Positions 4,137-10,347 of a stretch of 10,615 nucleotides of DNA are shown in pieces (position 1 is the first letter of the stretch; every line of letters begins with the position of its first letter). The stretch lies in NCBI GenBank assembly GCA_009702465.1, contig WLHY01000021.1, forward strand, positions 1 through 10,615. Direction: 5' to 3'. This DNA is from Actinomycetota bacterium (GTDB taxonomy: Bacteria; Actinomycetota; Actinomycetes; Nanopelagicales; Nanopelagicaceae). The position numbers and the translations under genes are program-made. The notes below the pieces were generated by a model. That model did not search any database, was not told where the DNA came from, and was given only the letters and a program-made list of their open reading frames with translations.

Positions 4137-5279
4137 CTAAGGTAGAGCCAACATTCGATCTAGTGCAACTTTTGCATGCATCGCTGTGTCGGGGTTAACC
4201 GAGATTTGGTTAACTACCTTGCCTGCGACCAATGACTCCATTGCCCAAACTAGGTGTGGTAAATCGATCCGATTCATTGTGCTGCAGTAGCAGATAGTTT
4301 TATCAAGAAATATCACATTTTTCTCAGGATTCTCATTAGCCAATCTCTGTACCAAGTTCAATTCAGTTCCAATCGCCCAACTCGAACCTGCTGGTGATTG
4401 CTGAACAGTTTGAATAATCATCTCAGTGCTGCCAACAACATCGGCGGCAGCCACCACCTCATGCTGACACTCTGGATGAACAAGTATTTTTACCCCAGCC
4501 AATTTACTGCGAGCATCTTTAATGTTATCTAAGCTAAATCTGCCGTGAACTGAGCAATGCCCACGCCATAAAATTACCTTAGCTCTTTTAACCTCTTCAT
4601 CTGTTAATCCACCATTGCGTTTCCAAGGGTTCCAAACAACACAATCATCAAGAGATAAGCCCAACTTTAAAACTGCAGTATTTCGGCCTAGATGTTGATC
4701 GGGCAGAAATAAAATCTTTTCACCCTTCTCAAATGCCCACCTCATTGCACGCTCTGCATTTGATGAGGTACATACTGCGCCACCATTCTTCCCAGTGAAA
4801 GCCTTTATCGCAGCGGATGAGTTCATGTAGGTAATCGGAGTTGTTTTACCTGTTAAATTTAATTTTTCAAGTTGTGCCCAGCAATCATTTACTTGAACTG
4901 CTGTGGCCATATCTGCCATCGAACAACCTGCGGAAAGATCGGGCAGGATAACTTGCTGTGAAGACTTAGTTAAAATATCAGCACTTTCTGCCATGAAATG
5001 CACACCACAGAAGATGATGCAATTAGCATCAGGGTTATCTGCAGCAGCTTGCGCCAACTTAAATGAGTCGCCTCGGATATCGGCAAAATCAATTACCTCA
5101 TCACGTTGGTAATGGTGTCCCAAAATCATTACCTGATCACCAAGGCTGGCGCGTGCTTTGATCGCTCGCTCTACCAGTTTTGGATCACTAGCTGATGGCA
5201 ACTGCCCATCGCATGAGACGCCACGCTCACTTTTTGGATCACCCTCTTGACCAAGCAAAAGTAGTTCAGTCAAACTCAT
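4137..5279 (-). CDS. nadA: Quinolinate synthase NadA
   Basis: Condenses iminoaspartate with dihydroxyacetone phosphate to quinolinate in de novo NAD synthesis; a cytoplasmic, oxygen-sensitive 4Fe-4S enzyme. The 380-residue product has the long actinobacterial NadA form. Visible blocks: ILGHHYQRDEV (52-62) with the substrate-binding His and Tyr residues, then SAGCSMADM with Cys119, GGAVCTSSN with Cys170 and KTICYCSTMN with Cys330. These three cysteines occupy the cluster-ligand positions; Cys332 is extra and close by. HPEC (268-271) and GTE (304-306) are also typical. The ATG at 5279 has AGGA about 9 bases upstream. nadB and nadC are not beside it; instead DUF3043 follows after 4 bases. It diverges from erpA, whose product can deliver iron-sulfur clusters, and a perfect inverted repeat lies between them. 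Confidence 0.96.
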   Translation of the reverse strand: MSLTELLLLGQEGDPKSERGVSCDGQLPSASDPKLVERAIKARASLGDQVMILGHHYQRDEVIDFADIRGDSFKLAQAAADNPDANCIIFCGVHFMAESADILTKSSQQVILPDLSAGCSMADMATAVQVNDCWAQLEKLNLTGKTTPITYMNSSAAIKAFTGKNGGAVCTSSNAERAMRWAFEKGEKILFLPDQHLGRNTAVLKLGLSLDDCVVWNPWKRNGGLTDEEVKRAKVILWRGHCSVHGRFSLDNIKDARSKLAGVKILVHPECQHEVVAAADVVGSTEMIIQTVQQSPAGSSWAIGTELNLVQRLANENPEKNVIFLDKTICYCSTMNRIDLPHLVWAMESLVAGKVVNQISVNPDTAMHAKVALDRMLALP

Positions 5280-5411: not shown

Positions 5412-5780
5412 ATGAGCACAGATGCATCACCAGCGACAGATGTAAAAATTACATCGGCAGGCATTTCACTGACACCAGTTGCAGCTGAAAAAGTTGCCGC
5501 TTTGTTAGGACAAGAGGGCCGAGATGACTTAGCCCTGCGAGTTGCTGTTCAACCTGGTGGATGTTCTGGTTTGCGATACCAACTTTACTTTGATGATCGT
5601 GCCTTAGAGGGTGACACCATCACTCAATTTGGAGCGGTCAAGGTTGTCACCGACAAGATGAGCACTCCTTACTTAATGGGCGCCTCAATTGACTTTGTAG
5701 ATACTATTCAAAAACAGGGCTTCACTATTGATAATCCAAATGCCGGTGGTTCATGTGCATGTGGTGATTCCTTTAATTAA
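5412..5780 (+). CDS. erpA: A-type iron-sulfur cluster carrier (ErpA/IscA/HesB family)
   Basis: Small cytoplasmic scaffold or carrier that delivers Fe-S clusters to client enzymes. The 122-residue product contains the complete A-type signature: Cys51 in PGGCSGLRY, and Cys115 and Cys117 in GGSCACGDSF at the C-terminus. The first 15 residues are a loose extension; the domain starts near ISLTPVAAEKVAALL. The ErpA assignment over IscA rests on the stand-alone context and on resemblance to the actinobacterial HesB protein (Rv2204c in M. tuberculosis). No strong Shine-Dalgarno is present before the ATG; GGATCAAG is the best stretch. Divergent nadA encodes a 4Fe-4S enzyme, a plausible client, and both could be controlled from the inverted repeat between them. 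Confidence 0.93.
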   Translation: MSTDASPATDVKITSAGISLTPVAAEKVAALLGQEGRDDLALRVAVQPGGCSGLRYQLYFDDRALEGDTITQFGAVKVVTDKMSTPYLMGASIDFVDTIQKQGFTIDNPNAGGSCACGDSFN

Positions 5781-5808: not shown

Positions 5809-6798
5809 ATGAGAGTTGCTATCGCTGGCTCCGTGGGTGGCGACCACATCATGAGCTTTAACGGAAAGTTCACCGACTCACTAGTTGCTGGCTCCTTAGC
5901 AAAGGTTTCCCTCTCTTTTTTAGTTGATACCCTAGAGATTCGTCGTGGTGGCTGCGGCGCAAATATCTCCTTTGGTATGGGCGCACTTGGCTTAAATCCA
6001 ATTCTGATTGCTGCAGTTGGCAAAGATTGGGTTGATTACCAGGCCTGGTTAAATCGCCACGGCGTAGATACATCCCATGTTTTAGTCTCAGAAAAACTGC
6101 ACACCGCAACCTTTATGGTGACTACCGATACTGAGTTAAATCAGATCGCATCATTTTTTCCGGGCGCAATGAGTGAGGCCAGAAATATCGAGTTAGCTCC
6201 AATCATGGCAAAGACTGGACAGTTTGATCTACTTGTTATTTCTCCTGATGATCCCGAAGCAATGATGCGCTATAGCGATATGGCACGTCGATTAAAGATT
6301 CCAGTAGCGGCTGATCCATCACAACAAATGGCACGAATGAGTGGTGAGGAGATTGCCCAATTAATCGATGGCGCAAAGTACTTATTTTTAAATGAGTACG
6401 AGCTAGCACTTGCGATTCAAAAAACAGGTTGGACCGATCGACAATTATTTGACCGGGTACAAGTTCGAGTTGTAACCCTTGGATCAAAGGGTGCGCAGAT
6501 AGAGGAACACGGCAAGGAAACGATCTATGTATCTGTGCCAAAGGAGGATTCAAAGGTTGATCCAACTGGAGTCGGAGATAATTTTCGCTCAGGCTTTATT
6601 GCTGGACTTTCCTGGGGCTTGGGTCATGAAAGATGCGCACAGTTAGGTTCTATGTTGGCCACATACTGTCTTGAGACAACTGGAACGCAGGAGTATAAAT
6701 TCACCAAAGCTGATTTTCTTAGCAGATTTAGAGCAGCTTACGGAGATGCAGCCGCTGAGGAGATCTCACAACATTTAGTTGTGAATTTACAAAGCTAG
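5809..6798 (+). CDS. PfkB-family carbohydrate kinase, adenosine kinase-like
   Basis: Ribokinase-fold kinase of 329 residues that transfers phosphate from ATP to a sugar or nucleoside hydroxyl. The first PfkB motif is seen in RRGGCGANISFGMGALG (45-61). The second is DPTGVGDNFRSGF, with Asp257 as the expected catalytic base and GVGD as the anion hole. DPTGVGD rather than DTTGAGD, and the gene order beside erpA and ctaC, resemble M. tuberculosis AdoK (Rv2202c), so adenosine phosphorylation is the best guess; a sugar substrate is not excluded. It follows erpA after 28 very AT-rich bases. No Shine-Dalgarno is visible before the ATG, so initiation is unusual or depends on readthrough from erpA. Its TAG abuts the TAA of the convergent NifS-like gene with no spacer. 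Confidence 0.9.
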   Translation: MRVAIAGSVGGDHIMSFNGKFTDSLVAGSLAKVSLSFLVDTLEIRRGGCGANISFGMGALGLNPILIAAVGKDWVDYQAWLNRHGVDTSHVLVSEKLHTATFMVTTDTELNQIASFFPGAMSEARNIELAPIMAKTGQFDLLVISPDDPEAMMRYSDMARRLKIPVAADPSQQMARMSGEEIAQLIDGAKYLFLNEYELALAIQKTGWTDRQLFDRVQVRVVTLGSKGAQIEEHGKETIYVSVPKEDSKVDPTGVGDNFRSGFIAGLSWGLGHERCAQLGSMLATYCLETTGTQEYKFTKADFLSRFRAAYGDAAAEEISQHLVVNLQS

Positions 6799-7863
6799 TT
6801 AAACCGCACGCAACTTATTTACGGTAGTAACAATCGCATCAGATAAATCTTGTACTTGCTGCATCGTTGTGTTCAGATGAAAAGTGATTCTGATATTTCC
6901 AGTTGTCTTCGCCCCCATAGCATGCAATACATGACTCGGCGCCATATCAGCTGATTTACATGCCGATCCAGAATCAACTGCAAAACCCATATCCTCTAGT
7001 TCGAGCACCAATCGATCCGCCTCTAAATCTGCAAAGACTAAGCTCAAATACTTGGAGAGATAATTAGCTGCATTAGGGGTGTAGTAGGCAATTTTTGCAT
7101 TATCCAAAGTATTTAAAAGTAATTCGCGGTAACCCAAATTATCCTGCTTTTTTAAGATGTAATTTTCTAATGCGACCGCACTTGCTAAGGCAAGGGGTAT
7201 CGAAAATGAGTTAGGCGTTTTTTGATAATCATTATGAGGCAGGGGATTACGCCATTGCGCCCCCTCTTTTACAATCAAAATACCCAAGCCACTTGGCCCA
7301 TACCAAGATCTGCTATCAAATAAAGCGGTGTCATATGTGAAGTTAGGAAGGTAATCAACACCGCTTGATGTGCAATCTGCAAAAACTTTAGAACCGGTAG
7401 GTGCAGCAAGGGAAATAATCCCAGTCTCACCATTTGCAACCTGCCACGAAATAACATCCTGACTAGATGAATCGAAACTCGCAATCACGCCAGATTTATT
7501 TACTGGTACTTTGTGGAGAACACCACCACCGTTTTGATAATTATCGCCAACCGCAAAGATCTCTTGTTTATCAACTTCGGAAATAAACAATTGGTTTCCA
7601 GATGTTAAAAGGCCAGATATTCCAAGATGAAACCCTAAATTCACCTCACCTAAAAATTCGATCTCATCACTTCTTACTTGAAGGTGTTTGGCAAAGGTAT
7701 TTCGAGCCTCATTTAATAAAAGCGCTGTTTGGCGAGAATCAGAATTGATCTTTGCAGGGTCTGGCCAACCTTGGTGAAATACTTGTGAAATAACTTTCCC
7801 GGCCGCCAAATCAAGGGGAGCTTCTTGCTGGAACCCGCTTGTGATACGAACCACCCGCTGCAC
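6799..7863 (-). CDS. Cysteine desulfurase-like (NifS/IscS, class V aminotransferase fold) protein lacking the PLP lysine
   Basis: A 354-residue member of the NifS/IscS fold, by length and by its C-terminal block DSGSACKSADMAPSHVLHAMG with Cys302 in the persulfide-loop position, followed by RITF (325-328). Real desulfurases bind PLP through Lys in a SAHKxYGPKG motif; the matching stretch here is FDSRSWYGPSG (182-192), so the Lys is Ser186 and the preceding His is Arg185. Other PLP contacts are also altered: the TEANN block reads VNLGFHL, the EH pair is EV (96-97), DxxQ is D163-C-T-S166, and the N-terminal LDNAATTP is gone. The frame is intact, so this is not simple decay. It is probably not a normal desulfurase; a sulfur-carrying or regulatory pseudoenzyme is possible. 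The start is GTG with GGAAGG 4 bases upstream; GTG at codon 4 is an alternative. It diverges from ctaC. Confidence 0.82.
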   Translation of the reverse strand: MQRVVRITSGFQQEAPLDLAAGKVISQVFHQGWPDPAKINSDSRQTALLLNEARNTFAKHLQVRSDEIEFLGEVNLGFHLGISGLLTSGNQLFISEVDKQEIFAVGDNYQNGGGVLHKVPVNKSGVIASFDSSSQDVISWQVANGETGIISLAAPTGSKVFADCTSSGVDYLPNFTYDTALFDSRSWYGPSGLGILIVKEGAQWRNPLPHNDYQKTPNSFSIPLALASAVALENYILKKQDNLGYRELLLNTLDNAKIAYYTPNAANYLSKYLSLVFADLEADRLVLELEDMGFAVDSGSACKSADMAPSHVLHAMGAKTTGNIRITFHLNTTMQQVQDLSDAIVTTVNKLRAV

Positions 7864-7900
7864 GCTACCTTCCCGGAGAGAACCAACTCGGGCGCAAGGT

Positions 7901-7912
7901 TATCCTTACCCT
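7901..7912 (+). promoter_or_regulatory. Possible -10 element of a leaderless ctaC transcript
   Basis: TATCCT (7901-7906) fits the actinobacterial TANNNT -10 and ends six bases before the ctaC ATG, which would place the transcription start on the A of the start codon. No Shine-Dalgarno lies at normal distance; AAGGT at 7896-7900 is 12 bases away. TACCCT (7907-7912) also fits TANNNT but is too close. No convincing -35 is seen. Confidence 0.35.
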
Positions 7913-8695
7913 ATGCGTCCCAGCCACCTAAAAAAGATTAGTGCGGGGTTGTTTGGAAGCCTCTTTTTAACAGGTTGCTCATCAGATGAAATCTCTGGTC
8001 TGGGCTTTGAGCAAGGCGTGACAAGCGTAAATGATGAAGCATTATCACTTTGGCAGGGTGCCTGGATTGCCGCAGCAGTTGTTGGAGTTGTAACGCTGGT
8101 ACTTATCTTGTGGCCAGTTGTTTTTCATCGCAAGAAAAATGAAGAGTTTCCAAAACAAACCCGAGAGAACAATTTTATTGAGATTACATTCATAATTATT
8201 CCATTTTTAATTGTGGCGGTTTTGTTTTACTTCACAGTAGTTAAAGAGAGCAAAATCGTTAAGGTATCACCTGACTCGCAAGTTTCACACATAATTGATG
8301 TCAATGGTTTTCAATGGTCATGGCAATTCACCTACAAAGAGGCTGGGGATTTTCCAGCAGCTTCAGTTACGGGAACGCCAGCTCAGCCGCCAACCTTGTA
8401 CTTACCACAAGGAAAAAAGGTTAAATTCACAATTAACTCAAATGATGTAGTTCATGGTTTTTGGATTCCCGCTTTTATGATTCAAATGCAAAATTTGCCG
8501 GGGGTAGAGAATTACCTTGAATTCACACCAAATAAGTTAGGTACCTATCCTGGAAGGTGCAATATTTTGTGTGGACGAAACCACTCTCAGATGCTGTTCA
8601 GCGTAAAGGTTGTAACACCGGCCGAATATGAATCCTATATTCAGTCGTTACGAGATTTAAACCAGAATGAAATAGATAAGGCGGCAACACCATGA
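7913..8695 (+). CDS. ctaC: Cytochrome c oxidase subunit II (CtaC), lipoprotein
   Basis: Subunit of the aa3-type terminal oxidase that takes electrons at its CuA centre, on the outer face of the membrane. From the ATG at 7913 the product has 260 residues. A lipobox LTGC gives lipid-modified Cys22 after signal-peptide cleavage. Two membrane helices follow, about 50-71 and 89-110, then the cupredoxin domain with the aromatic patch NGFQWSWQF (131-139). CuA ligands are His181, Cys216, Cys220, His224 and Met227 ([14 protein letters not shown]). The usual Glu between the two cysteines (CxExC) is Ile218; it normally gives a backbone contact to CuA and a side-chain ligand to the Mg/Mn site. An in-frame ATG at 7841 lies inside the divergent gene and would spoil the signal peptide. 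The TGA overlaps the ctaD ATG (ATGA). Confidence 0.96.
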
Positions 8696-10347
8696 CAACT
8701 TACGCTCCAAGACCTACGTTAAAGCGGGCGCCTATAGTGCCTACAAGTAAGGGAAAGTTGTTTGTAAAGTTCATCACCTCAACCGACCACAAAACAATCG
8801 GTTACCTATATCTGATCACCTCATTTGTATGGTTCCTAATTGGTGGAATTTTGGCAATGGCTCTGCGAGCGGAGTTAACTCGACCAGGAATGCAATTTTT
8901 AAGTAATGAGCAGTACAACCAAGTATTCACAATGCATGGAACCATTATGTTGTTGATGTTTGCAACACCTTTATTTGTTGGTTTTGCTAATGTGATTATG
9001 CCGCTGCAAATTGGTGCTGCAGATGTTGCTTTCCCAAGATTAAACATGTTGTCCTATTGGCTTTACTCATTTGGTGGCACCATGGCTTTTATCGGCTTCT
9101 TAACACCAGGTGGTGCAGCATCCTTTGGTTGGACCGCATACGCACCCTTATCTAACTCACAGTACTCACCAGGAATTGGCGCAGATCTTTGGTTGATGGG
9201 TCTAGCAATTAGCGGTATCGGAACAATCCTAGGTGGCGTTAACTTCATTACAACTATTTTTACGATGCGAGCTCCGGGAATGACAATGTTCCGCATGTCG
9301 ATTTTTACCTGGAATGTTTTGTTAACTTCGATTCTGGTTCTACTAGCCTTCCCAGCACTTGCCGCTGCATTTCTTGCACTTGAATCTGATCGTTTATTTG
9401 GCAGCTTAATCTTTGATCCAGCTAATGGCGGAGCCATGTTGTGGCAACATCTATTTTGGTTCTTTGGCCACCCCGAAGTTTATATTTTAGCTCTACCATT
9501 TTTTGGAATCGCTACTGAGATTTTGCCAGTCTTTAGCCGCAAACCAATCTTTGGCTACAAAGGTTTGATCGCAGCAACAATTGCAATCTCAGCTCTTTCG
9601 GTATCGGTTTGGGCGCACCATATGTACGCCAGCGGTCAAGTACTTCTTCCCTTCTTCTCCTTTATGACATTTTTAATCGGCATACCTACCGGCGTTAAAT
9701 TTGTGAATTGGATCGGCACTATGTGGCGGGGTTCAATCTCTTTTGATACGCCAATGCTATTTGTCCTCGGCTTTTTAATTACCTTCTTATTTGGTGGATT
9801 AACTGGTGTTATTTTGGCAAGCCCACCACTTAACTTTGCAGTATCTGCCTCCTACTTTGTAGTGGCTCACTTCCATTACGTTCTATTTGGCACCGTAGTG
9901 TTTGCTATGTTTGCTGGCTTCTACTTCTGGTGGCCAAAGTTCACCGGACGCATGCTAGATGAGCGCCTGGGTAAAATTCATTTCTGGACATTATTCTTTG
10001 GCTTCCACACTACATTCTTGATTCAACACTGGCTAGGAATTAAAGGTTTTCCTCGCCGATATGCGGATTACTTAGCATCTGATGGCTTCACGGGAATGAA
10101 TATGATTTCAACTGTTGGATCAGGATTATTAGCATTATCAATGATTCCATTCTTTATAAATATTTGGCAGAGTAGAAATGCACCAAAGGTCACTGTTGAT
10201 GATCCTTGGGGCTATGGCGGCTCACTTGAATGGGCAACCTCTTGTCCGCCACCGCGACATAACTTCACATCTATGCCAAGAATTAGAAGTGAGCGCCCAG
10301 CCTTTGATCTTCACCATCCTCATATGGCAGAAACGAGCAAACATTAA
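8692..10347 (+). CDS. ctaD: Cytochrome c oxidase subunit I (CtaD), aa3-type
   Basis: Catalytic subunit of the proton-pumping oxidase, 551 residues with about 12 membrane helices. Seen: His82 (MHGT) and His395 for haem a; His393 for haem a3; His260, His309 and His310 for CuB; Tyr264 in GHPEVY, the cross-linked Tyr. The D-channel Asp111 ([11 protein letters not shown]) and Glu262, and the K-channel Thr333/Lys336 (IPTGVK), are kept, so this is an A-type pump. The Arg pair in FPRRYADY (456-457) is also present. Unusually, the [12 protein letters not shown] block reads [12 protein letters not shown]: His and Asp of the Mg/Mn site are Ser385 and Ala386, and an upstream conserved Asp is Asn381. The C-terminus ([13 protein letters not shown]) is actinobacterial. 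It overlaps ctaC by 4 bases and ctaF by 1. ctaE and bc complex genes are not in the window. Confidence 0.97.

Follow-up and report, generated by a model that had tools for sequence, protein, structure and literature searches.

A ctaC-linked desulfurase homologue of Actinomycetia that lacks the Schiff-base lysine and keeps the persulfide-loop cysteine

Cysteine desulfurases carry a loop with the motif SGSAC, as a section of PMC8300815 states, and the numbering of the Schiff-base lysine and the loop cysteine of IscS as Lys206 and Cys328 is taken from parts of that paper and of PMC2854127. In Escherichia coli, TusA takes sulfur from the loop cysteine of IscS, and Asp52 is a docking acid on IscS, according to portions of the latter source. 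Desulfurase folds without the lysine are already known. IscS of Archaeoglobus fulgidus has Asp in its place and is reported to lack desulfurase activity and to ligate, through a Cys, an Fe-S cluster carried by IscU, and IscS1 of Methanosarcina acetivorans is also without the lysine, as described in sections of PMC7585200. In addition, actinobacterial proteins annotated as 'cysteine desulfurase/sulfurtransferase TusA family protein' (in Streptomyces, among others) belong to the same family as the protein studied here and share its Cys loop, but they have the lysine and a fused or adjacent TusA, whereas our protein has neither. In the open-licence literature, searched by titles and the starts of abstracts, we found no description of a ctaC-linked, often TusA-paired family whose lysine is missing in several lineages while every lineage examined keeps the cysteine.

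The gene encoding this cysteine desulfurase-like (CD-like) protein lies in the window, by which we mean the whole analysed stretch of 10,615 nucleotides of a Nanopelagicaceae assembly. The features of the locus are collected in Table 1.

Table 1. Features of the CD-like gene and its surroundings in the window
Feature	Position	Strand	Remark
CD-like gene, Lys-less class I cysteine desulfurase-like, 354 aa	6799..7863	-	GTG start
Ser186 codon TCT	7306..7308	-	place of PLP Schiff-base Lys
Cys302 codon TGT	6958..6960	-	persulfide-loop cysteine
Asn144	7432..7434	-	IscS Asn155 place
Asp163	7375..7377	-	IscS Asp180 place
Arg325	6889..6891	-	substrate-carboxylate Arg place
Gap between divergent starts of CD-like gene and ctaC	7864..7912	.	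49 bp
ctaC, aa3 oxidase subunit II	7913..8695	+	head to head with CD-like gene
ctaD homologue, oxidase subunit I	8692..10347	+	homologues recur in place
PfkB-family kinase	5809..6798	+	abuts CD-like stop
ErpA/IscA-type Fe-S protein	5412..5780	+	family matches
NadA quinolinate synthase	4137..5279	-	family matches

The order nadA-erpA-pfkB-gene-ctaC-ctaD, or the visible part of it, recurs in the family of the window and in most of the class loci examined, with the CD-like gene head to head with ctaC across these loci and pfkB missing in some. The gene following ctaC is presumably ctaD, a name that we give from gene order. The position between erpA/pfkB and ctaC-ctaD is that of the Actinomycetia ctaC-linked desulfurase-TusA module, and the neighbours at a Streptomyces locus (L255) are the same as those in the window; the window protein itself has no TusA adjacent or fused. 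Because pfkB abuts the CD-like stop, there is no room for tusA between them. The preliminary description of this DNA had pointed to erpA and nadA nearby, and both were indeed matched to their families; the telling neighbours, more than these two, are ctaC and, in relatives, tusA. At L017, L019, L025, L057 and the g40 loci (L150-L158), which are without pfkB, erpA directly abuts the CD-like gene.

The CD-like reading frame is intact, as had been described, running through 354 codons with no internal stop. The product has the aminotransferase class V fold (Pfam Aminotran_5, 43.3 bits), and its best score against the NCBIfam desulfurase equivalogs, 82.9 bits with TIGR03402, is far below the cut-off of 530.75. 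The AlphaFold model had a pLDDT of 90.6, with the Cys loop among the low-scoring parts. Sequence searches of the PDB and Foldseek were both led by A. fulgidus IscS (and its D199K mutant), VIA-align ranked Nfs1 at the top and A. fulgidus no more than 2 Z away, and the top fold matches were IscS/Nfs1, including E. coli IscS-TusA. A. fulgidus IscS2 (PDB 4eb5, 4hvk) likewise has an IscS fold in which the Schiff-base Lys is replaced and the loop Cys kept, and the Asp of its SSNDIYGP aligns with Ser186. A. fulgidus IscS2 and M. acetivorans IscS1 are, however, archaeal and partnered by IscU, whereas the relatives found here have tusA at the ctaC locus and are Lys-less in several families; a scan of 7 proteins of the window showed nothing IscU-like.

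Alignment with the SufS and the NifS/IscS-type protein of the same genome and with orthologues placed Ser186 at the lysine and Arg185 at the preceding His, which agrees with the preliminary description, and Cys302 in SGSAC followed by PSHVL, so that the reported retention of the loop and the following helix is borne out as well. Both proteins of the same genome have the lysine (SGHK in SufS, SAHK in the NifS/IscS-type protein), and a normal SufS is thus encoded elsewhere. The further claim that every major PLP contact is lost was too broad: according to the alignment, from which all our statements on the pocket derive, the protein has lost the lysine, the two His, the Gln and the Ser/Thr that bind the phosphate, but Asn144, Asp163 and Arg325 are kept. 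Among the Lys-less rows, the residue is kept at the Asn144 place in 106/106, at the Asp163 place in 104/106 and at the Arg325 place in 102/104 with letters. On the phosphate-binding side, the family has new, largely conserved residues, namely Glu73 (75/90 rows), Arg99 (78/90) and Asp183 (73/90). Residue 99, at the His104 place, is Lys in the window protein itself; a substitute lysine was considered there, and with Lys in 11/90 family rows it is no general substitute.

We then determined the spread of this state among orthologues from fetched Actinomycetia loci. The lysine column held a letter in 164 rows, 106 without Lys and 58 with Lys, a proportion that is no measure of the frequency in nature because the rows outside the window's family were picked for spread, low-scoring ones included. 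Lys was absent in 90/90 rows of the family, which rules out a local error or a strain-specific mutation. The remaining Lys-less rows came from f22, f23, f33, f34 (9/9), f40, f42, f45 and genus g124 of f38. At the Cys302 column, C was found in 104/104 Lys-less rows with letters (88/88 in the window's family) and in 58/58 Lys-bearing rows. Concerning the two residues singled out in the preliminary description, Cys302 is therefore kept, but Ser occurs in only 62/90 family rows, and the constant at residue 186 is the absence of Lys. Internal stops reported in G073, G113, G123 and G063 were read as early natural stops, because the frames in L147-L150 comprise 355-364 aa with the Cys loop included. 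Some relatives of the f34 protein retain SAH with Met, Thr, Ala or Val in the next place, which looks like a half-way state, and L180, L181, L182 (f14), L191 (f27) and L173 (f41), with Lys kept and the preceding His changed to Arg or Ala, are possible half-way states too.

Matches at E 0.001 were found in 59/60 relatives and 198/201 family genomes, the weakest of them likely being the NifS paralogue. In 28 further Aminotran_5 loci of relatives, a motif allowing any letter at the Lys position matched in 23, all with Lys, and was unmatched in 5, which belong without exception to G054, G394 and G427, genomes outside the family. Three database searches, two seeded with Lys-less family members and one with a Lys-less f34 member, gave 316 Lys-less proteins and Cys in 360/360 among the best 120 of each; several of the Lys-less proteins listed are labelled 'cysteine desulfurase'. 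Among named loci (best 80 of 571), Lys was lacking in 11/80, and Cys as well as a directly downstream or fused TusA with CPxP was present in 80/80, including these 11; since the loci were found by patterns, one of which spans PSHVL beside the loop, the counts are no census. The Lys-less ones were from Cellulomonas (3), Sediminihabitans, Isoptericola, Terrabacter, Phycicoccus, Knoellia, Janibacter, Nocardioides sp. AX2bis and one MAG, and the Lys-bearing ones include Streptomyces and Nonomuraea. Nocardioides sp. AX2bis has CAC at the lysine codon, and Lys is kept in two other Nocardioides loci. The locus is thus open to testing in named strains, whether Lys-less (Cellulomonas, Knoellia, Terrabacter) or Lys-bearing (Streptomyces, Nonomuraea).

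A tree of CtaD and CtaC from 38 genomes requires the Lys state to have changed at least seven times; in it, Lys-less f38-g124 joined f38-g82, which bears Lys (95/92), and f34 stood beside Lys-bearing f2 (100/97). The tree of the gene itself, with long branches and a weak backbone, showed 2 changes and did not reject monophyly of the Lys-less rows (p 0.55) or of f38 (p 0.29), and for this reason the count of changes rests on the neighbour-gene tree. The direction would be one of Lys loss, judging from the Lys in other desulfurases; an incoming Lys-less copy may instead have replaced the resident gene. We infer both the losses from the module, of the lysine and, on the branch of the window, of TusA, and the order in which they would have occurred. 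If Lys loss recurred, the locus would be a natural experiment that splits the sulfur-carrying from the sulfur-releasing function.

Selection on the gene was estimated by NG86. The dN/dS ratio, defined in 70 of the 75 family pairs with at least 70% identity, ranged from 0.043 to 0.198, and from 0.068 to 0.198 in the 16 pairs with dS < 1, the pairs being non-independent because they share sequences. For the window gene and its nearest relative, L010, the ratio was 0.085. These values, far from 1, and the unbroken frame argue against neutral decay, which the preliminary description had named as evidence that would overturn it. The mean pairwise identity in the family was 40% (800 sampled pairs), and columns conserved in at least 95% of the Lys-less rows were concentrated around the Cys loop, 12/30 in residues 297-326 versus 14/324 elsewhere (Fisher, p 6e-8). 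The CD-like gene is the fastest of the block; its identity to L011 was 64%, and that of PfkB, ErpA, CtaC and the available part of CtaD was 94, 88, 81 and 92%, respectively. In six genomes of the sister genus g39, chosen because they had no strong match, it was cleanly deleted so that PfkB abuts CtaC (L102-L107), and it is absent at the G027 locus (L109) as well. These made up the 7 closed places in a look-up of 15 genomes, in which five carried the gene, whole or broken, and G017, G024 and G124 yielded no readable locus. In G020 (L034, 1501-2212), the gene breaks near residue 207-240 with erpA next, and either the Cys loop was lost or the contig is misassembled.

TusA was found directly downstream of the CD-like gene or fused at its C-terminus in 109/168 loci (four duplicates included), that is, in 55/58 Lys-bearing and 50/105 Lys-less rows. 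The CPxP cysteine lay inside the TusA domain alignment in 54/55 and 50/50 of these, respectively, the match at L050 missing that part. When 30 genomes were searched, TusA was present in 18, and by coordinates it was beside or in the CD-like gene in 16 of the 18, the two exceptions being G364 and G379. In these two and in G410 and G434, all of them f34 genomes, TusA is on a different contig from the Lys-less gene. In a draw across the class, 189/296 genomes had TusA, and it is not bound to the CD-like gene because it also occurs without a strong match to it, for example in G224 and G259. TusA was not found in the genome of the window (0.89 Mb, 69% complete) or in three near-complete congeners, and none stood beside the CD-like gene in 22 rows of the genus (of which L023 and L031 end within 160 bases of the gene), in 9/9 g40 rows and in 10/11 g39 rows.

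In the E. coli IscS-TusA complex (PDB 3lvj), unlike here, the desulfurase is an active enzyme, and its docking residues W45/E49/D52 correspond to Arg44/Leu48/Asn51 of the window protein when the conserved Ala-Arg of the helix is matched by eye. The place of Asp52 was acidic (D/E) in 52/55 Lys-bearing TusA-paired rows and in 9/12 Lys-less TusA-paired rows outside the family, but only in 9/38 TusA-paired rows of the window's family. Within the family, this fraction did not differ significantly from the 8/52 of the unpaired rows (Fisher, p 0.42), and docking of TusA is thus unsupported there.

TusA pairing in relatives favours sulfur transfer, and the CD-like protein is probably a sulfur-handling helper, a relay or an adaptor, and not an enzyme. 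On the sequence evidence, we consider it very likely that it is a selected, Cys-dependent protein and not a desulfurase. The preliminary description had suggested a selected pseudoenzyme acting as sulfur relay, Fe-S assembly partner or regulator, and there is good support for selection on a protein that lacks the Lys and keeps the Cys, whereas no computation shows which role it has. Our best explanation, to which we give nearly an even chance as a whole, is a relay descended from a TusA-partnered desulfurase. The ancestor would have been a Lys-bearing desulfurase with a TusA partner at the Actinomycetia ctaC locus, and its class I fold would have been retained for the mobile cysteine loop, without PLP-dependent desulfuration. 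The cell's own SufS or NifS/IscS would make the persulfide sulfur, Cys302 would take it over, and the receiver would be the adjacent TusA in many relatives. In the genus of the window, for which the searches found no TusA, a different protein would receive it, perhaps ErpA or one of the SUF proteins. The persulfide relay step itself we hold tentatively, somewhat short of even, because the docking-acid test went against it; the failure to find TusA in the window genome and three near-complete congeners, the loss of the docking acid in most family rows and the deletion of the gene in some relatives count against a relay. Against the explanation as a whole also stand the presence of TusA in genomes with no strong match to the gene, the faster evolution of the gene relative to its neighbours, and its own tree, on which a single Lys-less clade is not rejected. 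A bolder proposal, which we regard as conceivable and rather doubtful, is that the desulfurase-TusA pair at the ctaC locus turned into a PLP-free persulfide carrier system many times independently, the catalysis being expendable and the loop cysteine indispensable, and that the empty cofactor site of the window's family was rebuilt as a new, conserved charged pocket that has a ligand or partner of its own.

The loop cysteine might instead ligate an Fe-S cluster on a scaffold or on ErpA, with no sulfur moved, as reported for A. fulgidus. The Lys-less IscS of that archaeon heads the PDB sequence searches and Foldseek, and erpA is nearby and adjoins the gene directly where pfkB was lost. We nevertheless regard a cluster ligand as unlikely, since no IscU-like protein appeared among the scanned window proteins and the recurring partner gene in relatives encodes TusA, a sulfur carrier. 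A regulatory or stabilising subunit that pairs with active SufS/NifS in a mixed dimer, or with ErpA or TusA, and tunes them would fit the fold retained in a confident model and the charged set (Glu73, Arg99, Asp183) that replaces the PLP phosphate binders in the family. However, the invariant positions cluster around the Cys loop, which a pure regulator could dispense with, and such a role seems improbable to us.

We judge it equally improbable that the gene is a remnant under weakening selection that is leaving small genomes, its Cys loop kept by history alone. The clean deletions at six sister-genus loci, the absence at the G027 locus, the broken copy in G020 and the fastest rate in the block would be expected of a remnant, but dN/dS of 0.04-0.20 and a Cys in every family row with letters, despite the low mean identity, would not. 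Least probable by far is that the protein is still an enzyme, which binds PLP or another cofactor without the Schiff-base lysine. Three residues of the pocket, Asn144, Asp163 and Arg325, persist, but in the family the phosphate side is largely acidic, most rows have neither His, and the sole Lys kept in more than 60% of the family rows, Lys38, is Arg in 56/58 Lys-bearing rows.

Some minor observations concern the assemblies and the rest of the window. Contigs C9 and C34 of G018 (L026, L057) carry two different copies of the locus in one draft, perhaps a mixed bin, and G035 is likewise (L032, L040). Database proteins 78-83% identical to the protein of G026, a family member, are labelled Candidatus Nanopelagicaceae, from which we take this to be the family of the window, and P0121, 100% identical to the G026 protein, is labelled Candidatus Paceibacterota, probably from a mislabelled bin. 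At positions 3-1519 of the window, two minus-strand frames resemble, by eye, the ATPase and a membrane partner of an ECF/cobalt-type ABC transporter.
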